Below, piece after piece: positions 1-63,940 of a stretch of 64,000 nt of DNA. The DNA is taken from the NCBI GenBank assembly GCA_905221615.1, contig CAJNDT010004557.1, positions 925,001-989,000 on the forward strand, written 5' to 3'. Origin of the DNA: Symbiodinium sp. CCMP2592. Lineage: Eukaryota; Sar; Dinophyceae; Suessiales; Symbiodiniaceae. Below the pieces are notes generated by a model that worked only from the letters and a program-made list of their open reading frames with translations, did not search any database and was not told where the DNA came from. Each line of letters opens with the position of its first letter. Within the stretch, counting starts at the first letter, position 1. The position numbers and the translations under genes are program-made.

Positions 1-1573
1 GGATCCGAAGCCACGTCTTTACGTCCGAAACTCTGAGCCCCTGGAGCCTTGAGCTAGATCCTACAGTCCCTGAATTACTTAAGCCAAGAAGCACTGAACC
101 TATATTCGAAAGAAACTGAGCTATAGGCCTTGATTCCGGAATACTGGCAGAGGCTTTCTTGTTGTGCTCGCTGCATTGTTGTACCGCAAGTTGCAAGAAC
201 CGCAGGACACGCAGGGTTTTAGGGCGTATGGTCTTGGGAAGTTGAGGGTGTCACGGTTTGGGGTTAGGGATCTGCTTCGGCCAGGAAGTCTCTAGACAGA
301 TGATTGTTTGCGGGCTCGAACATCTAGTGTGTGTTCATTGGAGATTACTTGGGCCCATGGGGACTTCGACAGGTACCTTCTGCAGTTCCTGCGGCGCATG
401 ATGCAGCTTGCCGGCACTAGATCGCTGTGACGGCGTTTCGGCCTCGAAGGCATAGATACTCTTAGCCAATGGGAGAACCTATAGCCTATCACTCTGGCTT
501 TGCCTATTTTATCTGTCTGATAGAATGTGTGAAAGCTTTTTGGGCCCAGCTATGGAAGACGAGAGGACCCAACTACCCTCGATTATGACCGAAATTCCCA
601 CATCTAGTGGGGTCCTGGTAGACCCTAAACCCTAAACCCTACAAAAACCTTAAACCCTAAGCCTCAAATAGAAACCCGAAGATCAAGAGGACCCTAGAAA
701 AGAGGATAACCCCTCCACGAAGTTTCTCTGCATGGCGGCCCAGGCCAGGGAAGGCTGTGGGCGAGTTTGCGCAGACATCCTGGTCAGAATCTTAGGGCTT
801 TGCTGTTTTTTGGGTGGTCTTTGGTTTAAGGGCTTGTTCTGGGGTAGGTTTGTCGGGTTTAGGTTTTAAGTTGAATTAAGGCTGTAGGTTTTCTTGTTAA
901 TTGGTTAGGGCCTGTTCATGTTGGGACTTGGGCCTTTGCTGCTTCAGGGCCCGGGTGCAGGGGTGTTCGGGATCTTGTGAGATGGCTTTAGGGTTGGAAC
1001 TTAGGATTTGGGTTTACAGATTATAATTTTCTTTGTGCCTTCGTGTCTGCGCGCGCTTTTAGGCTTGAAGGGGCCTGCATGAGGCCTTTGAAGCCTCAAT
1101 GGCACTAGGCTTGAGGGCCAGGGGCTGATCCAGCCACCCAGGAGCAGGAATTGCATCAAAAGGCAGAGACTTCAATTGCGAGTTGCTCTATACAAGACGA
1201 TTCAGAGACGAGTCTGTCTGCAGAGTTCGCTACTGTGAGCCTGGAAGAGAGAGTTTTGAACAAACCGACCAAGCCCACCAGCTGCTAGACTCGAAAATAT
1301 AATCGCAAGCAGCACTCCCAGCGAAATCCCTCGCTCCGCGCCGTATAGCCCCCAAACTACAAGACCCGTCGAATGCTGTTCTTGGACATCACTCGCTCGT
1401 TCATCGCGTATAGCACAAGTGTCACGAGGGTTGGGAGTTCCAGGAACTACTTGAACGACTCCTTTCGCACCACACTTTGCTGCGAGTATCAACCGCACGA
1501 GATCGCTGCAGCCCATCCCTCAGAGTGTCATGCATTGTTCTTGGTTTCAGGATGTTTCAGGTTGTTTTTGCTA
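1..1573. other. intergenic, no recognised gene
   Basis: No domain, RNA gene or tandem array was recognised. Short CCCTAAA runs lie at about 623-660. A plus-strand frame is open from 1349 with an ATG at 1373 to about 1633, but its end runs into the fold-back element at 1576, so at most about 70 codons are independent of a repeat. It matches nothing I recognise. Confidence 0.5.
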
Positions 1574-1575
1574 TA

Positions 1576-1678
1576 TGGGTGGTTGTCAACATTAGGGTCC
1601 CTTTTTGGGTCCTTGTTATACTACGGCACCTAATATTTAGGGTACCCAAAAAGGGACCATAATTTTGACAACTACCCA
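1576..1678. mobile_element. family A fold-back element (Stowaway-like), type copy
   Basis: A 103-bp hairpin. The left arm starts TGGGTGGTTGTCAA and continues through GGGTCCCTTTTTGGGT; the right arm is its complement, ACCCAAAAAGGGACC to TTGACAACTACCCA. The arms pair over about 37 bp around a central asymmetric part reading ACGGCACCTAATATTTAGGG. TA lies immediately outside both ends (1574-1575 and 1679-1680), as expected for a target-site duplication of Tc1/mariner-type non-autonomous elements. Other copies: 8941, 9237, 13595, 45374, 48326 and 52734. There is no coding capacity. Confidence 0.85.
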
Positions 1679-1682
1679 TATG

Positions 1683-3698
1683 TCACTTGGGTACGTAGGG
1701 GTCTGTGATTCGTGTTTGGAGTTGGGTGCTTCCTAAATCCTGGTAAATCATGCCATGTACAGAATATGCATATTGCCCAAGCCCTAAACCCTAAAACTCT
1801 GGCCTCACAGTCGTTGAGCCAGGAATACCAAGAGGCCGGAGCGAATCGATGATTTGGACACTGTTGAACGACCGAAAAGCAAGCAAAAGCCTACGACCCT
1901 GAGCTGCAAAGGCAGCAGCGAACAACTACAAGGACCTGAAAGCATTGGAGCCTTATGAAACTGCACCAACCCCCTCCAACGAAGCACCCCACAACACAAA
2001 GAGCGCTTTTCTTTGCCTACATTAGTTGGGCCTGCCATACTGTAATCCGTGGAGATTTCAACTACACGCCAAAGCCCTATTCTGATAAAGTATAAAGTAC
2101 ACCCCCGAGCTGGTGTACTGTACCAGAAATTTCAGGTGGCTTGGTTTAAGGGGCGGGGGCGCCACCAAAACTGCGATGCTCAAGCATATTGCTAGCATTG
2201 CTACTGCCGTCATCGCTTTACTAATCTAATTGTAACTGAATGTAGTTGAACTACAATAGCTTCCAGTAATATTGTTTCACGGGTTTGCGCAGCCTTGCCA
2301 CTATCCCGTGTTTGTGTCTGTATCAAGAGCATAGTTATATTTCTATTCGATTGAGCATGTACCTGCACACTGCACATATTGCTATCATGATAAACTGAAA
2401 TCTCGAAGCACCCGATAAGCCCTCGAACCTACACTCTAAACTCGAAACTGTGCCAAGTGGAGGCCAGTATCTTCCTGGCCGCAGACAAGTTAGGGTTCGC
2501 GGCTCAGATTATCCTGGAAGCCCACTTCAGGGATCAGGGTTTAGTCCGTCTCTGGCCGATACAAAGCTATTATACAACTACTACAGGTATCGGAGACCTC
2601 TAGGACGTGTCCTTCCGGGGTGAACTCGGGTTCCGGCTACGAGCACAGGCTTTGCGGTTTAAAGGTTTATGTAAAGATTTCAATCATTCTGGGGTTCCAA
2701 GGATCGGAGCTCAGACTTCTCTGGCTCGGCCTGATTTGAGCTGGCTTCAGGGTTTAGGGCTTGCGGCGAGTTGGGTTCATAGCTATTTGGGCGTACGGAT
2801 GTTGGGAGCTTGTGGGTTATGCCATGCGCTTTGTAGATCCTATGGTACACCCGCCGGGCATAGAGTTCAGGGCATATGTAGGCCCTTAAAGCCTTCACCG
2901 TGAGAGTCAAGCTTCCAGCACAAGTGGATCGAGGAGCAGTATGTGACTGTAAGCAACCATCCTGCAACCACGATGAAGGTTTCTGTGCAAAAGCGATGAC
3001 TTCATAGTTGGGGCGGACTATATATAGGGACTACTATGGCGATCCATTCCCAAGTGACCGCAATCAAGCGGCTAACCATGCTCCGAATCTGTTGACTTGA
3101 AGATGCCACAGAGGCAGATCAAATTTGCCAACCGAAGAACCTAACCCTGCATTTATGCGGCTATTTCTATGCATCGCTACACCCACACCTAGACCCCCCA
3201 ACTACCCTCCACCATACCCCTATTACGGACCATAAGGGCCCTATTAAAGAGGGGCCCTTGAGGGGCCCTGGCCTACCGCCACCAACTTCAGGATAGAGCT
3301 TCCAAGCCAGCCTCCCTGGTGGAAAGACTGCCACACGCGATACGAGGACCGTCAAGTGCTGGGCTTTAAGGTCAAGGGCTTGCCCCTACATAGACCCTAA
3401 AGAACCTACATTTTAAAGGACCTGTATAAAACAAATCATAATAGGGGACCCTAAAGGTGGGATAAGCCCGAAACAGCATTTTCAGTTTTCTCTGATTATC
3501 GGAGAGATGCGTGTGAACTTCGGCGAAGCACCTTCACGTTATGATGCGGCACTATATGGTGTTGACCTGATTATGGACAGAAATATGAACAAAGCAGGAG
3601 ATTTGTGCAAGGCACGCCGACGCTGACACATGCATGTAAAACTCCGTCATTTGCCAGGCAAGCCACAGTCGCAACAAAAATTGCCAGCTGCGGACGAG
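1683..3698. other. intergenic, no recognised gene
   Basis: Mixed-sequence DNA with scattered single heptamers. Frames near 2600-2960 are open on both strands, with no domain. The stretch around 3230-3285 is rich in GGGCCC palindromes. I see no RNA gene and no TA-flanked hairpin here. Confidence 0.45.
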
Positions 3699-3809
3699 CC
3701 TATAATCTACATTGTAGTTCCTTTTCGGACTAAACCAGTTTTATGGTTAATGAAGATCCGCCAACGTGAACTAACGAAAAAGAAACTACAGTGGACACTT
3801 CACTATAGG
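3699..3809. mobile_element. family C fold-back element, degraded
   Basis: Arms CCTATAATCTACATTGTAG and CACTATAGG match the family C termini (CCTATAGTCTCCATTGTAG). The interior has many mismatches, and a small open frame across it is a by-product. TA follows the right end. This looks like an old copy. Confidence 0.6.
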
Positions 3810-3941
3810 TAGATCCCGTACGACACCATAAAAGTATTCAAAACGAAGCCATAGCGGGGACCAGATTGTGCAGCAACATCTGTGGACACCTTCTCAACTT
3901 TTCGTTAAGACATCTATCTGCTAAGTGCCGAAAAACCTATT

Positions 3942-4040
3942 GGTTCATGTACCTGTTATAGTATATACTTCTTGGCCGTTAAGTACCTATATAGGGACTA
4001 CTGGAATGCCAAAGTATATACTATTTAAGCACATGGACCC
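3942..4040. mobile_element. family M fold-back element
   Basis: Left arm TGGTTCATGTACC pairs with right arm GCACATGGACC. The interior carries inverted GTATATACTT / AAGTATATAC. Related copies at 11919 and 46428 share the GGCTCCATGTAC-like ends. Confidence 0.6.
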
Positions 4041-4136
4041 TTAGGGAAAGAGACCTTCAGGATATGGCGCACATCGCGACCACCATTACCGATCTGTACA
4101 GGTCAGGAACTTGGACCCTCGAATCCAGTGTTTCTA

Positions 4137-4200
4137 TGATTACTATAGGGGCCTGAATGATTACGTACCTATTTTGGTGTGGATGGTTCCTTAATATGAA
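4137..4200. mobile_element. family K fragment
   Basis: TATAGGGGCCTGAATGATTACG matches in part the left end of family K (see 12220) but no right arm follows. It is probably truncated by the adjacent microsatellite. Confidence 0.35.
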
Positions 4201-4225
4201 TCTACTCTCATGGGCGCCCAAACCT

Positions 4226-4320
4226 GTATGTATGTATGTATGTATGTATGTATGCATGCATGTATGTATGTATGTATGTATGTGTGTATATATATACATA
4301 TATATATATATATACACATA
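4226..4320 (+). repeat. (TATG)n / (TA)n microsatellite
   Basis: About 14 TATG units pass into an alternating TA run. The minus-strand frames across it, rich in Tyr-Ile-His-Thr, are translations of the repeat. Confidence 0.95.
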
Positions 4321-4330
4321 CATTAGAATC

Positions 4331-5262
4331 CTGTAAGAAGAATCTAGTGTAACCAAGAACAGGTTGGCTCCCAGGGAGTGTGTGGAGTTTAGGCAAGCGG
4401 AGGTTGGATGGTAGTAGTTTAGTAGGCGCGCGGAGTTACTAGCAACGTTAAGGCTCTATGGTGGTGGTATAGGACTGTTTAAGCTTTAAGCGGGTGATAG
4501 AGTTGTACGATGTTGTGCAGCGGACCAAAGAACCAGAATTCTTCGTGTTTTAGTGTCTGATAGAGTATATGTACGCAGGAGCTGTACTGATTCATGCTGT
4601 CATATGCTGGCTTTTACAAGCTTTTCATGGGGTGTAGGATAGGATTGAGGGCTGAAGGTGTAAGGATTCGGGGTGTAGGGCCAGGGCCTGCCGGGTTTTC
4701 TACTGCTCCTGCGGACATCTGCCACTTGAAAGTCCAGGTCCCGAACCTCACACCCAAAACGAGAAAAGGCCTAAACTGTACATAGCCTTATGCCGGAAGC
4801 CCAGAACTCTAGGCCCAGTGACCCCAAAACCTCCGAAAGCTAAGGCATCAATAGACCCGGACTCTGAACCCCGCAGCCAGCCCGCCCAGACCTAAAGCCC
4901 TCATTCTCCGACGCCCAAGTCCCCGGCAACAAACCGCTGGTGGTCTGAACGTACACCGCATCCTAACAAAGCACCATAAAATACCAGAGCCCTACCCTAA
5001 CCCCAAGCACCGAACGAGCTTGGGGTTACGTTGCAGGCGCGACTCATTATCATGACCATGACGGTTATCGTCTACTTTTATATTCTGGTTTTTGTTGTAT
5101 TCAAAATTTGCAATATTGCAGACATGACTGGTATTAGTGTCATTATCGCTGTTAACACATCCCCAGAGGGTCCACATATAATTACTAACATTATGGAATA
5201 AGGTACTCAAGACCATTTTAGAGATGGTCTTTTGGGACCTACTTCCACAATGTTAGTATAGC
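4331..5262. other. intergenic, no recognised gene
   Basis: No gene or array recognised. The part at 4800-5010 is C-rich, with degenerate heptamers. Confidence 0.45.
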
Positions 5263-7397: not shown

Positions 7398-7836
7398 TTT
7401 AACCCTAATCCCATAAGAGCCTTCGCCGAAATGCCCTTGAGGTCTTCGCGCCTCCGCAGCTTCCTCAGCTGTTGCTTGCACCGGGAGGTGTAGGGTTTAG
7501 GAATCTCAAAACCCCTAAACCTTCTATACCTTTAAACCCTTTGGCCTTTAAGCGCTAAACTCGAAGCGGCTATTTTAACATGAGGAAACACGAAGTGCGT
7601 GCCGGCACCAGAAATAAAGAGACTTGTAAGCAAAGCAAGCAGGAAAGAACAAAGCGCTAAAGACTGAAAGATCGAACGAGAGAAGCACAGCAAACAGAAC
7701 CACCAGCACAGCCAAGCGAAACGAAAGCGCGCAAAAGCCTACACCCCCAACCCTAAACCCCCGAAGCCCTAGACCCTATACTGCAAACACGAAAATCCTA
7801 AACCCTAAATTTAAACCCAATTTCTGGCAGAAGGGG

Positions 7837-7971
7837 TGGTGGTGGGGGGGGGGGGGGGGGGGTTTGGTAGCCTTATTATAGATCCCTTATAGGAGCCCTG
7901 AAAGACCCCCTTTAAAGGAAACCCGAGGCTCCCACACGCGCGGGTGGGGGGGGGGGGGGGGGGGGGGGGGC
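7837..7971. repeat. two poly-G tracts around a GATCCC block
   Basis: Runs of about 20 or more G near 7846-7862 and 7947-7970 flank a block with ATAGATCCCTTATAGG and CCCTTTAAAGGAAACCC. Such runs can form G-quadruplexes and are also prone to assembly error. Confidence 0.8.
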
Positions 7972-30944: not shown

Positions 30945-32467
30945 CCGAACTAAGCCCTCCACATCGAGGGCATTCCTTCGAGACCCTTCAAATCTCGAGG
31001 TCTCCTGTGGGAAGACGTGATCAAAGCCGTTCGTTCCCCAACAAAACGTCGCCAAAAAAACGGGATAGAATCCCGGAGGAAACCCGATAAACCTACGTCA
31101 AAATCTCCATACAAGCTCTTTAACCCCATTAAAGATCGCTGAGGAGGCTGCACCGAAAGAATCCGAAGCTTCTGCTGCCATCGAGGATGGCAAGGCACCC
31201 CAACCCTAAACCCTAAACCCTATAGACTCTAAGAACCTAGACCCTTTAAACCCTGAACTCTAACCGTGTCTGCCCTCTTAGGGTTCTATAATGCAGAGGT
31301 TTGGATGATTAGGAATAGCAATAACGCAGCATCTTAGCCCCGGTATAGTTCGAAGATGGTCGAAGCGTATATAGCACACGCCAACGCTCAAACTGTTCTA
31401 GTGATGAAGCCCCCTAAGATAAGGGATTTTCTTTGGAGTTTGAGTGTTCGACAGTGGTCTACAATCCAAGCGGGTTCTGCAGGACTTTGGAGTTTGGAGT
31501 TCAGTGATTTCCTGATGGGACGTTCGGGTTTATGCATGTCCTGGCATGTTTCAGGGTTTGATTTGAGGGTTTAGTGTACTAGAGTTTGCTCAGGGTTTTG
31601 AGGCATGTTGTTGGTATGTTGTTTGAGCTGGACTCTTCTTCATGCACTTTCCCGACGTGGCTCAGCGCCACTCATGCTCTTGTAATCTACAGGTGCTAGA
31701 TGCAAGGTCCTGCCTGGACTCCTTCACTTTGTCATAGTCGGGTAACATTTTTGATTTTTGTGGGTACTTAAACCCAACAAAGGACCAGAAATTTACATTT
31801 TTTATTCCTATCCCAACTATGAACTAGTTTTATGGGTACTTAAAAACCCAATAAGGAGAATAAGTATACATGTTTATTCCTATCCCAACCATGAACTATA
31901 GTTCATGTATGGCAGCTCGGAGCTCTGAGCATTGACCTTTTCACCCTTGCAACCGCAAAAGCCGAATCCTCAAAAAGCTCTCAACTGCAGCCCCCCTTAG
32001 CGCTTAGTAACACGTCAGCCCAAGCCCTAATCCTTACCCACAGCCCTCAACCTGGTAATGACAATGTGTATCTGTTATCCTTCAAAACCCCTCTGTCCAA
32101 AAAATGCATGAAAGCGTTATGCTTCTACAACACCCCAAGCAGGAACTCGTCAGAAATTCCGTACATAAGCCACTAAGACTTGCTCATATACACTCATGCT
32201 ACTATCGCAGAACCCAGATCTCAAGAATTGGCAGCAATATGTGCCCGCGATTACCCTCACCCCGAAACCCCAAGCGTCCAAGTACCCAGTAATCACATAC
32301 TCTCCAAAAGCCTAACCTGCATAACTACTATCCTAAACCCAAGTACCTGATTATTGGGTCCTTTGGACCCTTGGGGAAACCTAAACCAGGGTGGGCTCGT
32401 TATCCCAAACATGCAGAAGCTGTCGGACGATGCTTCGAAGCTGCAGATGTCGTGGGTGGTACATCCT
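30945..32467. other. intergenic with a direct repeat; no recognised gene
   Basis: At about 31760-31895, TGGGTACTTAAA...CCAA and TTTATTCCTATCCCAACTATGAACTA recur (31795-31825 and 31865-31900), a two-copy direct repeat of about 70 bp. Frames at 30950-31198 (minus) and 31356-31574 (plus) have no motif. Confidence 0.45.
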
Positions 32468-32564
32468 TAGGGCTACTTAGAAATAAATTTTAATTTTTGG
32501 TTATTATAATCCCTAAGAAACAGCTAAAATTCCAATTTTTGCTAGGGTTCTAAGTTCAGTATAG
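32468..32564. mobile_element. family G element
   Basis: GGGCTACTTAGAAATAA at the left, CCCTAAGAAACAGCTAAAAT inside, and GCTAGGGTTCTAAGTTCAG at the right. The ends share inverted (T/A)ACTTAGA. Other copies: 33498, 39582, 41714 and 63845. Confidence 0.75.
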
Positions 32565-33497: not shown

Positions 33498-33596
33498 TAG
33501 GGGTACTTAGAGAAATAACTTTTAATTTTTGGTTATTATAATCCCTAAGAAACAGCTAAAATTATAATTTTTGCTAGGGTTCTAAGTTCAGTATAG
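33498..33596. mobile_element. family G element
   Basis: GGGGTACTTAGAGAAATAAC to GGGTTCTAAGTTCAGTATAG, with CCCTAAGAAACAGC in the middle. It is nearly identical to the copy 1 kb upstream at 32468. Confidence 0.8.
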
Positions 33597-38644: not shown

Positions 38645-39580
38645 ACGTATCTACACAGAATAGTTGTTGCATAGCATGACTTTGTAAGTTGTGCAGGGAT
38701 TTTCTGGGTTTGTGAGCGTAATACAGGTGTCTGTTTAATTTGTGATGATACCCTTTCCTCAAGAACCCGATTGTAACTACTGCGGGCACCTGACTAAACC
38801 CTTTCTGCAAAGGGGTTTACCATGGGGGGAATATTGACCAGAGGTCTGCGATACAAACTACAGGGGCAATCAAAGGCTGCTGGAGGATTTAGTTAGGCTT
38901 TATGCGAAATGGTTTTCCGTTCAGTACTTTTGAGCACGCATTAGTTTTCGTGTATGGGCTTCGTGAGGGTGTTTATGCACGACAAGAGGCCAGGGAGCTT
39001 GACGAGTTAATGTTGTGAACTTTTGAGGCGTCGTACAGTATAATACCACATATCACGAACTTTTCCCCCTAAGCACGATTCTAGCGTTGTCCACAGCTTG
39101 GAACGTAGATCATGGTATGCGGATCCTTTCGTGCTGACTCTCGACTCGGTTAAAGGCGATTTTGTCGAGTTGAGGCACTATAGGGTGTAGGCATTGAAAT
39201 AACATCCCTCGACCCCTAAACCCGGCAAGCTGGAAGTACCGAATGGTGGCCCTGAGCCACCCCCAAACTCCAACCGTTAATATCTCAGCGCAGGTTACGA
39301 CCCCGAGAAGCACAAGACAAAGCCCATCTACCACGACAAGTAGATGGCCCAGTGTTTTTGGCTTCTTGGGGATTAGGAGGCTAGGGTCTAGGCTAGGCGG
39401 GATTGAGTTAGTGGTTTAAAGCTTGGAGGCCATGGGAGGAATTCACAGTTGCCGGGTTTGTTTTCATAGATGTGCAGGGTTTAGGGTGTCTCATTGAACG
39501 ATAGGGTGTGCAGTGTGTAGTGTTTTTTTTCGCTTTCTGCTTGGTTAAACCCTGCAAACCCTGAACCCTGCACCCTTGTC
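38645..39580. other. intergenic, no recognised gene
   Basis: No array or fold-back element was found. A minus frame at 39110-39334 shows no motif. Confidence 0.4.
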
Positions 39581-39581
39581 T

Positions 39582-39675
39582 TAGGGGTACTTAGAAATAG
39601 TTTTTAATCTTTGGTTATTATACCCCCTAAGAAACAGCTAAAGTTATAATTTTTGCTAGGGTTCTAAGTTCAATC
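39582..39675. mobile_element. family G element
   Basis: TAGGGGTACTTAGAAATAG at the left, CCCCCTAAGAAACAGCTAA in the middle, GCTAGGGTTCTAAGTTCAA at the right. Confidence 0.75.
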
Positions 39676-40141
39676 TGCGGGGGCAGGCTGTTGGGACCTA
39701 GGGGTCCAATGGGGGGTGGGGCTCCTTCGGAGGGTTTAGGGTTTCGGGGTTCTAGAGTTTGGGGTTTCGTGTAGGGTTTGTAGGGTTTGGGGCTCCTTTG
39801 GGCTGGAGTTTGGGGTTTGGTGTTGTGCCTTGCTTCGGTTTGGGGGAAGGGAACTTCGGGCAGAGATCCGGAAGTCGGGGGCAGTGCCATGAAGACCAAA
39901 CCCTGAACCCGAAAAATCCTAAAAGCCCTAACCCCTAAACCCTGAAACCCGAAAAGGAGCCCTCAAAAAAAAACCTAAAACCCCAAAGCCCTAATCCCTC
40001 CTTCTCCTGGCGATTACTGAGTCTCTGCATTACTTCGTCAGTGCCTAGGATCCTTGGGTTAGAAGAATACGATCCCCGAAAAAATCTACCACAAAAGCAC
40101 GTCCACCCCCCAAAACGGGTCCATACTTATGGTCTAGGGTT

Positions 40142-40301
40142 GAGGTTGCGCAGTTATTTCACGTGACTGCGACTCTCTCTATCTCGCGCGAACGTCTTCT
40201 ATATAGTTGTGTGTGCACAGCTGTCCAGCAGTCCGATCGTGTTTGTGTGGTTAGAGGTGGGCTGCTGTCGACAGCTTGTGCAGCCAGTTGATTTCATTTT
40301 C
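40142..40301 (+). repeat. direct repeat A1
   Basis: 160 bp, recurring at 40928-41087. It begins GAGGTTGCGCAGTTATTTC and ends CAGTTGATTTCATTTTC. The only difference noticed is GCGCGAACG here against GCGCGGACG in A2. Confidence 0.9.
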
Positions 40302-40620
40302 ATTGGTTCCCTTGAGATGGTGGCCCAACTGGCACTCATGATCGCACGGGCCAAAGTCTGCAGCCTGCCATGTGCGTACCGGGCGGTGCTGCGACAATAC
40401 AGTGATAACATGGGAGTGGTGGCATCGGTTTCCAAAGGTTTGGCCAGCAAGCCACCGATGTGCTGTGCGCTGGTCACGCTTTGCCTGTCTGCGGATGAAA
40501 TGCGACCTCTCACTTTCGCACATCGCCGGGGCGCGTAATGTGGAAGCTGACTACCTCAGTCGCATGAATTGCGCTTCGCAGCCTTTGGACCAAGCTATCG
40601 AATCTGCCTTTCCGAACCAT
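40230..40620 (+). pseudogene. retroelement RNase H domain, frameshifted
   Basis: In the frame open from 40209, the translation gives IGSLEMVAQLALMIARAKV, which fits the RNase H helix carrying the catalytic Glu (SLEMVAQLAL), then QYSDNMGVVASVSKGLAS, which fits the strand carrying the catalytic Asp (SDN). The frame then stops at 40538. The overlapping frame continues CDLSLSHIAGARNVEADYLS, the conserved C-terminal H-x-G-x-x-N-x-x-A-D-x-L-S-R motif of retroelement RNase H. A one-base shift near 40490-40505 therefore breaks the gene. The first catalytic Asp region and the upstream reverse transcriptase are missing. This motif style is typical of DIRS-like and Ty3-like elements. RNase H removes the RNA template during reverse transcription; this copy should be inactive. 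Confidence 0.8.
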
Positions 40621-40817
40621 AACAGAGTGGAGATCAGTGTCAAGGATGTGTTTGGGCCATGGAGAGACTTCATGTCCGGAGGACCCAAGTGTCTTTGACA
40701 GGTAGTCGTTTCTCGCGTCCTTTTGCCTCATGTGAGCTGCGTCGGTCATACCAGCCGCGGCTTCGCAGGGGATGTAGTGTTAGCGGCTGGGACATAGCAG
40801 GGACAGCAGGCGTTGTT

Positions 40818-40927
40818 GGGTGGAGTGGGACTGCTGTCCCTGGAGCCTGGAGGCTTCTGCTTAGGCTTTCGGACATCGTCCCATCATTCCAAAAAGGCCG
40901 CTTGTGTTGAGTGAGTGCGAGATTGTA
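40818..40927 (+). repeat. direct repeat B1
   Basis: 110 bp, recurring at 41107-41216. It begins GGGTGGAGTGGGACTGCTG and ends GAGTGCGAGATTGTA, directly followed by GAGG of A2. Confidence 0.9.
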
Positions 40928-41087
40928 GAGGTTGCGCAGTTATTTCACGTGACTGCGACTCTCTCTATCTCGCGCGGACGTCTTCTATATAGTTGTGTGT
41001 GCACAGCTGTCCAGCAGTCCGATCGTGTTTGTGTGGTTAGAGGTGGGCTGCTGTCGACAGCTTGTGCAGCCAGTTGATTTCATTTTC
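40928..41087 (+). repeat. direct repeat A2
   Basis: Second copy of A1, contiguous with B1. Near identity suggests a recent event. Confidence 0.9.
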
Positions 41088-41106
41088 CCACCCGCCCGCC
41101 CTTAAA

Positions 41107-41216
41107 GGGTGGAGTGGGACTGCTGTCCCTGGAGCCTGGAGGCTTCTGCTTAGGCTTTCGGACATCGTCCCATCATTCCAAAAAGGCCGCTTGTGTTGAG
41201 TGAGTGCGAGATTGTA
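41107..41216 (+). repeat. direct repeat B2
   Basis: Second copy of B1, followed by GAGG (41217-41220) and then by unrelated sequence GTTAAGGG. Confidence 0.9.
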
Positions 41217-41428
41217 GAGGGTTAAGGGTACTCATGGCATACTGGATTCATACTTATGATAAGGGTCTTGGGTTATATATATATATATATACAAACCCTG
41301 ACAGACTCGAAGCTTAACAAACCATTCGAACTCGTCGTCCCTCGCATGCTAGAAGCCCCAAGCCCCAAATAAAGAGCCCTAAACCATAAGCCCTGAGAGT
41401 GTTAACGACCCTAAACCACAACCTAATA

Positions 41429-41531
41429 CAGTAGAAGCCAGAAAGTTGGAATATCATTATCGTAACCCCTTTAAGGTAAATTATAGGGGATCCTACCATT
41501 AATCCATATTCCAACTTTCTGGCTTCTACTG
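41429..41531. mobile_element. family F-related perfect hairpin
   Basis: CAGTAGAAGCCAGAAAGTTG pairs exactly with CAACTTTCTGGCTTCTACTG. TA flanks both ends (41427-41428, 41532-41533). The centre contains GGGGATCCTACCATTA. A truncated relative lies at about 46755-46800. Confidence 0.9.
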
Positions 41532-41607
41532 TACCAAGGCAAAGAGATAACCTTCTGGGCCTTGGAGCATCGCCTTTGTGGCTTGACCGTCACTGCTTGA
41601 AGCTGTA

Positions 41608-41706
41608 CCTATAGTCGCCATTGTAGTTCCTTTTTGGGTTTAACCAATTCTATATTAGGGATCCTAAAAGGTAACCCCAAAAAGGAACTACAATGGAGAC
41701 TATAGG
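41608..41706. mobile_element. family C fold-back element
   Basis: CCTATAGTCGCCATTGTAG pairs with CTACAATGGAGACTATAGG, with TA on both sides. It is almost identical to the copy at 33901. Confidence 0.9.
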
Positions 41707-41713
41707 TACTACT

Positions 41714-53850: not shown

Positions 53851-54078
53851 TATGGTCACCCCCCCCCATGACAGACCATCCCCTTCAAAACATCGCTCCC
53901 ACCGGCGTGTTCGTGCTTTTTCCGGGGTATCGAGTTTGAGCCCTCCGAACGTATCCCTGGAACCACCAAAAGACTGAGACCAGAAAGCAGCACGATAAGG
54001 CGAGCGGGTGTCCTACCAAGAAAGGAATTACAGAGCACACGTGTATGGATGAGGGTTGTGCTGATACACTACATAGTA

Positions 54079-54424
54079 AGCATTACACAGTAATTTTACT
54101 TGAGTCATATATAGAGCAGATTCCAGCATTTCCAAAATTTCCAAAATTCTCTCCCCTAACTTTCCGGATTTCCAAAATTTCCAAAATTTCCAAAAAGTCC
54201 GCCCTTATGTTTTGGAAAAATCCTGTCGACTAGGTCGGGAAATTTTGGAAATTTTGGAAATTTTGGAAATTTTGGAAATTTTGGAAATTTTGGAAATTTG
54301 GAAATTTTGGAAATTTTGGAAATTTTGGAAATCCGGAAAGTTAGGGGAGAGAATTTTGAAAATTTTGGACATGCTGGAATCTGCTCTATATATGACTCAA
54401 GTAAGAGTACTGTGTAGTGCTTTT
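54079..54424. repeat. large inverted repeat with GGAAATTTT minisatellite
   Basis: The left arm (54079-54196) and right arm (about 54303-54424) match over about 115 bp: ATTACACAGT...TTACTTGAGTCATATATAGA, GCAGATTCCAGCAT, CTCTCCCCTAACTTTCCGGA and the complements. The right side of the loop carries about eleven GGAAATTTT units; the left carries about six of the complement. Confidence 0.9.
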
Positions 54425-63530: not shown

Positions 63531-63844
63531 CTTTGAGCTCATCGATCCGACATGGAGGGCACCGAGGCTCGAAGAACTGCTGCATGTCTTTTTTTCTGCC
63601 CTTGTATGCTTCGGCTCCTTGTTAACAAAGGTTCCTAGTGTTTAGGGTTCATGTAACGCCGATCCCTATGTTTTGCAGCGTTCTACTTTCGTGCTGTTGG
63701 TTTACTCTTTGGTTTTGGGGTTGCGGATTTCGGGTTTGGTTTTGGGGCTATAGGGCTTGGAGTTTGGGGCCTCGGTCTAGACTAGAGCTCAAGGTTTGTG
63801 ATCCAGTCGTTGTTCTTCTGTAACCTTACACCCTAATCGTACCT

Positions 63845-63940
63845 TAGGGGTACTTAGAAATAATTGTAATTTTTGGTCATTATGATCCCTAAAAAACAGC
63901 TAAAACAATAATTATTGCTAGGGTTCTAAGTTCAGTATAG
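63845..63940. mobile_element. family G element
   Basis: TAGGGGTACTTAGAAATAA to GGGTTCTAAGTTCAGTATAG, with CCCTAAAAAACAGCTAAAAC in the middle. Confidence 0.75.

Follow-up and report, generated by a model that had tools for sequence, protein, structure and literature searches.

A group of repeats at 40145-41219 of the 64,000-nucleotide stretch of Symbiodinium sp. CCMP2592 DNA analysed here (the window) is, in our judgement, probably one young insertion of a split-direct-repeat tyrosine-recombinase retrotransposon that has lost an internal part, perhaps through a stop during its copying. The copy in the window lacks everything between the end of its first A repeat and the RNase H region. Its relatives elsewhere in the genome include two full-length elements, a large set of solo repeats and several further copies with internal deletions, most of which begin at or close to the end of the A repeat. 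A preliminary description of the locus, made from the local sequence alone, is partly supported by these results.

Structure of the element in the window

The preliminary description placed the feature at 40142..41220 and read it as a retroelement remnant in which split repeats surround a broken RNase H domain. This layout is real, and the order of A1, an internal piece, B1, A2, 19 bp and B2 stands in the position first given (Table 1). A repeat search of the window returned an A pair of 163 nt with 99% identity (40139-40301 and 40925-41087) and a B pair of 114 nt with 100% identity and 0 differences (40818-40931 and 41107-41220). Two differences fall within the 163-nt A pair, the first of them beyond the element boundary; measured from G|TTGCGC, A1 and A2 of this copy differ at 1 of 157 bases. 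By our judgement rather than by calculation, repeats of such length and identity far exceed what could arise by chance.

The repeat proper starts at 40145, and the preceding GAG is flanking sequence. The single G between GTAGAG and TTGCGC is common to B1 and A2, and the element is therefore delimited as 40145-41219 with one ambiguous end G. The internal remnant opens with the deletion junction TTTTC|ATTGG. Its RNase H piece is indeed broken, by a 5-bp difference that is also present in the full-length copy L010, and a 9-bp stretch is absent from the window copy, as it is from the other full-length copy, L009.

Table 1. Coordinates of features in the window copy and in L064, an element of a second family
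Feature	Position	Strand	Remarks
A1 repeat, left end of the element (starts G|TTGCGC, ends ...GATTTCATTTTC)	40145..40301	+	Left boundary same in copies elsewhere
Internal remnant: putative 3' RNase H region and 3' untranslated part	40302..40817	+	Matches L009 6620-7140, L010 and L011
ORF fragment with HIAGARNVEADYLSR, which we take to be the C-terminal box of RNase H; the upstream part is in another frame	40342..40698	+	Frame shift as in L010
B1 repeat, ends GTAGAG	40818..40930	+	Next G (40931) common to A2
A2 repeat	40931..41087	+	Repeat comparison
(C3N)4 tract CCCACCCGCCCGCCC at the A2/spacer boundary; minus-strand G-quadruplex motif	41087..41101	+	Same tract in L009 and L011
Spacer of 19 bp, CCACCCGCCCGCCCTTAAA, between A2 and B2	41088..41106	+	Repeat comparison
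B2 repeat, right end of the element	41107..41219	+	G at 41220 is element or target
L064, A1 repeat	1351-1509		
L064, putative tyrosine recombinase ORF	1489-3300		
L064, Gag-like ORF	3629-4849		
L064, putative RT-RNase H region	to 7215		
L064, B1 repeat	7423-7543		
L064, A2 repeat	7546-7700		
L064, spacer of 72 bp between A2 and B2			
L064, B2 repeat	7773-7893		

Full-length, split and solo copies

A search of the 1.098-Gb assembly for the parts of this element (family 1) returned at least 38 matches to A, at least 41 to B and at least 5 to the internal piece, and the same ends were found at many unrelated loci. Split copies account for four A1 and four A2 matches (on contig C4556, which is the window copy, and on C1313, C397 and C5028), and a decayed copy on C2413 for one A1. 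A full 19 of the 38 A matches belong to solo A-spacer-B units with a gap of 19-33 bp, and in 6 of these 19 the B match spans just the first 37-40 bases of B. A further solo, on C4501, has an internal deletion; the rest are four interrupted pieces, one match with B 88 bp off and four without B nearby. The short form of family 1 is the solo A-spacer-B unit and not the deletion seen in the window. The earlier proposal that the window copy represents a very small non-autonomous family could not be upheld, since the 516-bp internal piece has five matches and is joined to A1 at this junction in one of them, the window copy itself.

Two of the split copies, L009 (C1313) and L010 (C397), are about 6.7 kb long, 99.5% identical from A1 to B1 and 98.9% identical over the whole element. 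Both have the order A1 - ORF1 - ORF2 - ORF3 - B1 - A2 - spacer - B2, with the ORFs on one strand and, in this complete form, a spacer of 19 or 22 bp between A2 and B2. L010 has an open ORF1 and a shifted ORF3, L009 shows the converse, and neither copy has both ORFs open. The fourth split copy, L011 (C5028), is 2.05 kb long. In the larger copies A and B lie at the ends, outside nearly all coding sequence, and are not the ordinary internal coding sequence that would have spoken against an element of this kind. The preliminary description had likened the repeats to those of the DIRS order, and the two 6.7 kb relatives, with their putative tyrosine recombinase (YR), Gag-like and RT-RNase H ORFs, the last recognised by motifs, agree with that comparison.

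The split copies share the layout A1 - internal - B1 A2 B2, and the two members of each repeat pair are almost identical. In the window copy and in L009 the two A repeats differ at 1 of 157 bases, in L010 and L011 at 0, and a private base of L010 is present in both its A copies. B1 and B2 are identical in these copies, save for an internal duplication in B2 of L009. Such concerted change of A1 and A2 is expected if one template served for both repeats, and it speaks for a recent insertion, as had been proposed from the window alone.

The distribution of the repeats is itself uneven. Contigs C5028 and C221, which make up 0.77 Mb of the 1,098 Mb, hold 25 of the 38 family-1 A matches (19 of 20 on the plus strand in C5028 and 5 of 5 in C221) and 34 of 43 matches to another repeat, family 3, all on the plus strand. 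These contigs (loci L011, L012, L014-L019 and L022-L026) hold an oriented cluster of solo repeats. Solos of family 1 (for example L015:1072-1357) and a family-3 solo (L017:7667-7974) start with GT and end with AG, and would thus form GT-AG introns if they were transcribed. Roy and others (2023) reportedly described introners in dinoflagellates. For an introner reading of our solos, one orientation is shared in two contigs, exons were not established, and a LINE-like RT (in L011) and other repeats lie beside them. Introners are treated in passages of PMC9860276 and PMC11453091.

Two family-1 copies (L026:788-2867 and C5028:86390-87908) sit within family-3 repeats at the same point, the end of a C-tract, and are either related copies of one event or the products of a target that was used repeatedly. 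C1719 has six family-3-like matches, all partial and on the minus strand and for the most part spaced at about 4.4 kb, which look like a tandem array.

Ends and integration

The window copy has GAGG at its left end, at the B1/A2 junction and at its right end, and this had been taken to be a common sequence at which integration occurs. Across the family, GAGG is present at 3 of 24 true left ends, and the three bases ahead of G|TTGCGC are otherwise variable; the true right ends (n=19) comprise 14 with GAGG, three with GAGA, one with GAGT and one with AAGG. These hand counts cover the window and the fetched loci, a subset of the 38 places, with the B1/A2 junctions of the four split copies excluded and the paralogous pairs L022/L023 and L024/L025 entered separately. 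The left ends do not support a crossover at GAGG.

The most direct view of an insertion comes from related repeats of which one is filled (L015) and one is empty (L019). The empty site GACCTC|GGTTCACAAG becomes GACCTC|GTTGCGC...GTAGAG|GGTTCACAAG with no bases duplicated or lost and one G ambiguous, and an indel lies about ten bases rightward. Insertion without a target-site duplication, as first suggested, is therefore observed on one clean filled/empty pair, which likewise gives no support to GAGG as the crossover. A comparison of L026 with L017 and L022 agrees in place and is not clean at the single-base level. Inspection by eye of the listed flanks of the fetched copies revealed no target duplication. 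For the window copy, the corresponding empty site would read TTGAG|GGTTAAGGG.

Predicted proteins

ORF1 matches PF00589 with an E value of 0.043, and a related ORF matches PF02899 (integrase N-terminal domain) with an E value of 0.016, both below the curated cut-off. All 14 aligned ORFs, which were picked from 32 ORFs of the genome and are 24-40% identical to the first, have the same five residues (R287, K314, H389, K392 and Y428) without exception. The remaining ORFs also carry HSLK, except for HSSK in the decayed L040 and for the truncated L036 and L063, which end before this box. In an hhalign comparison of the ORF1 profile with Escherichia coli XerD, the boxes fall in the same order, in a weak match (E 0.032, probability 1.6%); the YR profile found no match among PDB sequences. 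The motifs taken together, with no single strong match among them, suggest that ORF1 encodes a tyrosine recombinase, which is a trait of the DIRS order, rather than a DDE integrase.

A Lys probably occupies the place of Arg II in these predicted recombinases. We say no more than probably because hhalign set the His of HSLK against a His four residues past that of H-x-x-R, with Arg II in a gap, and the match of HSLK to HVLR was made by eye.

ORF2 may encode a Gag-like protein, given a CCCH zinc finger, matched below the curated cut-off (E 0.00037), and a CCHC motif near its end that was identified by eye. Comparison of ORF3 with Pfam, NCBIfam and PDB sequences gave nothing relevant. Inspection by eye reveals YVDD and what we take to be RNase H boxes, and ORF3 is conserved in L063 and L064; on these grounds ORF3 is a putative RT-RNase H. 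A Pfam scan of the three ORFs detected no methyltransferase or DNMT domain, and no relatives were confirmed in IMG/VR.

A second family and the C-rich tract

The element L064 (C4913) has A and B repeats unlike those of family 1 and the same anatomy (Table 1). The internal-B1-A2-spacer-B2 end of L064 recurs on C5064 and C2179, and solos of this family 2 lie on several contigs. Families 3-5 are further short repeats, known as repeats only, each present in at least two fetched loci and all with a C-tract inside.

In both families A2 is followed by a C-rich tract, which is CCCACCCGCCCGCCC in family 1, where the first C belongs to A, and CCCGCCCGCCCGCCCC in family 2, where the first CCC belongs to A. 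A1 has no such tract, and in six family-1 solos the C-run is altered, with GG interrupting it. Tracts of this kind number 15 on the plus and 2 on the minus strand in 51 kb of C5028, and 5 and 0 in 12.5 kb of C221, compared with 0 in each of 60 dinucleotide shuffles, although the tracts in these two contigs are not independent because many are copies of the same families. The background is 2 on the plus and 3 on the minus strand in the 64-kb window (this tract included) and 3 and 1 in 44 kb of other loci. No paper on a C-rich tract at the point where A and B are split in elements of this type came up among the open-licence titles and abstracts searched.

We considered self-priming by a hairpin at the spacer and rejected it. 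The spacer and the start of B fold well in family 1 (z -3.5, and z -2.9 with a variant spacer), and those of four other repeat families do not (z -0.8, +0.8, -1.5 and +1.8), so that such a hairpin is no general feature.

Deletion junctions and the mode of copying

The sequence that follows A1 is TTTGCTTTC in L009 and L010, ATTGGTTCC (RNase H region) in the window copy and TCAGTTCTT (RT region) in L011, and A2 passes directly into the spacer. The window copy and L011 both exit A at TTTTC| with 0-1 base of homology, which means that two independent family-1 deletions share their point of exit to the nucleotide. In family 2, L071 and L072 (identical in flank and counted as one event) exit A at CTCAATT and resume at about 2488 of L064 with 2 bases of homology, and L073 exits at CTCAATTTCG and resumes in B with 1 base of homology. 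Relative to the first C of the C-tract, the junctions lie at 0 or +1 in the window copy, +1 in L011, -8 to -10 in L071/L072 and -5 to -6 in L073, the family-2 junctions thus being near the repeat end and not at it. In all, four of the six junctions that we examined coincide with the end of A or precede it by no more than 10 nt. The other two do not fit a start of deletions at this point: L013, an older copy that is about 96% identical, is missing 483 bp inside ORF1, starting 280 bp past the end of A; in the solo L027 the break lies within A, at position 98.

In published models of these elements, the RNA would be reverse transcribed, the cDNA would be circularised through the B/A junction, and the circle would be inserted by the YR. 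For the shortened copy in the window we would add that strand synthesis halted on reaching the end of an A copy and was taken up again at a template's RNase H region; what halted it would presumably be the C-rich (in the minus strand, G-rich) tract directly after A2. With low to moderate confidence, we infer that the deletion arose from strand or template switching at this stop. Besides the two junctions that do not fit, the occurrence of similar tracts elsewhere in the window and in other loci and the altered C-run of six family-1 solos speak against this reading. A more specific form of the proposal, which we put forward as speculation and consider rather unlikely, is that the (C3N)4 tract is a replication signal. 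A G-quadruplex in the minus-strand cDNA would stop the second strand at the end of A, and strand transfer would then close the circle and homogenise A1 and A2.

The competing explanation that deserves most weight, even if we lean against it, is that the deletion took place in DNA after insertion, by replication slippage or end joining and with no reverse transcription, such that the common left breakpoint is a coincidence. Deletions in transposons are common, the junction homology of 0-2 bases would be in keeping with such an origin, the window deletion is carried by the window copy alone, and those of L013 and L027 begin elsewhere. However, coincidence would have to account for two independent family-1 deletions that begin at the same nucleotide, which is the exact end of A, and for two family-2 junctions no more than 10 nt from the C-tract. 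For three junctions in the 10-nt zone, the value under a uniform model over 5.5 kb is 6e-9, which serves only as a rough guide given that L013 and L027 were left out, that the zone was picked after the data were seen and that the copies were found through A. Furthermore, a deletion at the DNA level would begin in A1, which has no C-tract.

We regard it as improbable that the element is instead a composite, in which the YR joined a one-unit circle (A-internal-B) to the left end of a solo A-spacer-B that was already resident. The element can be read as two A-X-B units with a common B/A junction, solos are abundant, and one repeat unit can insert into another. Nevertheless, the near identity of the A and B pairs within four copies and the presence of the private base of L010 in both its A repeats favour the making of both units in one cycle, and a single-unit A-internal-B copy was not established. 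An origin of the deleted copies as reverse transcripts of spliced RNAs, in which the end of A always served as the splice donor, is very unlikely indeed: a fixed left boundary with variable right boundaries does look like splicing, but TTTTC (TTTGC in the parent) is not followed by a GT, GC or GA donor and AG does not directly precede the resumption points GGC|ATTGG and GAA|TCAG, and this absence of splice signals led us to reject splicing as the cause. Least tenable of all is the alternative named in the preliminary description, a tandem duplication of a retroelement piece with an internal deletion and no ends of its own, with which the local sequence alone is compatible; its deletion part stands, but the duplication part is contradicted by identical ends at many unrelated loci and in the 6.7 kb copies, the repeats being the element's own.

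Relationship to known elements

By its structure, family 1 can be assigned to the DIRS order. Ngaro elements of this order run Gag - RT - RNase H - YR. The YR ORF comes first in L009, L010 and L064, and because of this difference we do not file the family under Ngaro, although the apparent lack of a methyltransferase domain in the three ORFs is a trait that it shares with that group. According to extracts of PMC8547959, Ngaro elements such as those of Cafeteria burkhardae resemble family 1 in having the layout A1-[ORFs]-B1A2B2, a length of about 6 kb, isolated AB repeats and no methyltransferase; family 1 differs from them in that its YR precedes the Gag-like and RT ORFs and a spacer separates A2 from B2.

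SymbioDIRS-Dnmt3 and other Symbiodinium DIRS elements, as described in portions of PMC5890265, also come from a dinoflagellate, have the order A - coding - B - A - B and carry the YR in an ORF of its own. The same portions report two forms with the order of the integrase and Pol ORFs shuffled, and RTs that align poorly with Pfam. SymbioDIRS-Dnmt3 has a Dnmt3 domain in Pol, whereas none was found in the three ORFs here, and DIRS elements free of DNMT are mentioned as well; these portions of PMC5890265 make no mention of a C-tract or of deletion breakpoints.

The trypanosome element VIPER likewise has the layout A1 ... B1-A2-B2, and SIRE, which corresponds to A2 and B2 of VIPER with about 30 bp between them, parallels the solo A-spacer-B units described here (extracts of PMC6681497). 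VIPER belongs to another host lineage and has its ORFs in the order Gag-like, YR and RT/RH (same extracts), whereas the YR comes first in family 1. Split direct repeats are also a feature of the PAT group, which includes Kangaroo and in which Pat1 has a Gag zinc finger and YR position and orientation vary (parts of PMC4157794). PAT carries a methyltransferase and Kangaroo an inverted YR according to the same parts, in contrast to family 1, where no methyltransferase was found by the Pfam scan and the ORFs are on one strand.

Surroundings of the window copy

The window copy is embedded in telomere-like sequence, with 416 CCCTAAA or TTTAGGG words in window positions 1-64000 (6.5 per kb) compared with 0.08 per kb in 51 kb of C5028. 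Beside the insertion lie short elements at 41427-41533 and 41605-41709 that have inverted repeats of 28 nt (100%) and 38 nt (95%) and are foldback- or MITE-like. A dispersed repeat of 93 bp is present in four copies (32466-32558, 33498-33590, 39580-39672 and 63842-63934), and an inverted repeat at 54078-54422 has arms of 123 nt that are 94% complementary and 99 nt apart. No tRNA or Rfam matches were found in the window. The 21-mer of the dinoflagellate spliced leader occurs at 429 exact places in the assembly (217 forward and 212 reverse), compared with 0 for the same sequence written backwards, and the host was accordingly treated as a dinoflagellate.

Implications

Taken as a lone insertion, the feature in the window is ordinary, and the type of element to which it belongs is known already. 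It is the start points of several internal deletions that hint at the way in which such elements are copied. To our knowledge, the copying of split-direct-repeat elements has been described mainly by models. Deletions that start at or beside one point in two unlike families, near a tract that both have kept, would point to a definite intermediate that could be tested for in vitro. Likewise, if a recombinase can be active with Lys at the Arg II position, those described here would bear on a rule about the active site. Were the C-rich tract indeed a replication signal, the A repeat would be a strong-stop product whose extent is set by where the polymerase stops, and the deleted copies would be misfires of that process. 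If true, this would provide a physical explanation for why these retrotransposons have split direct repeats.
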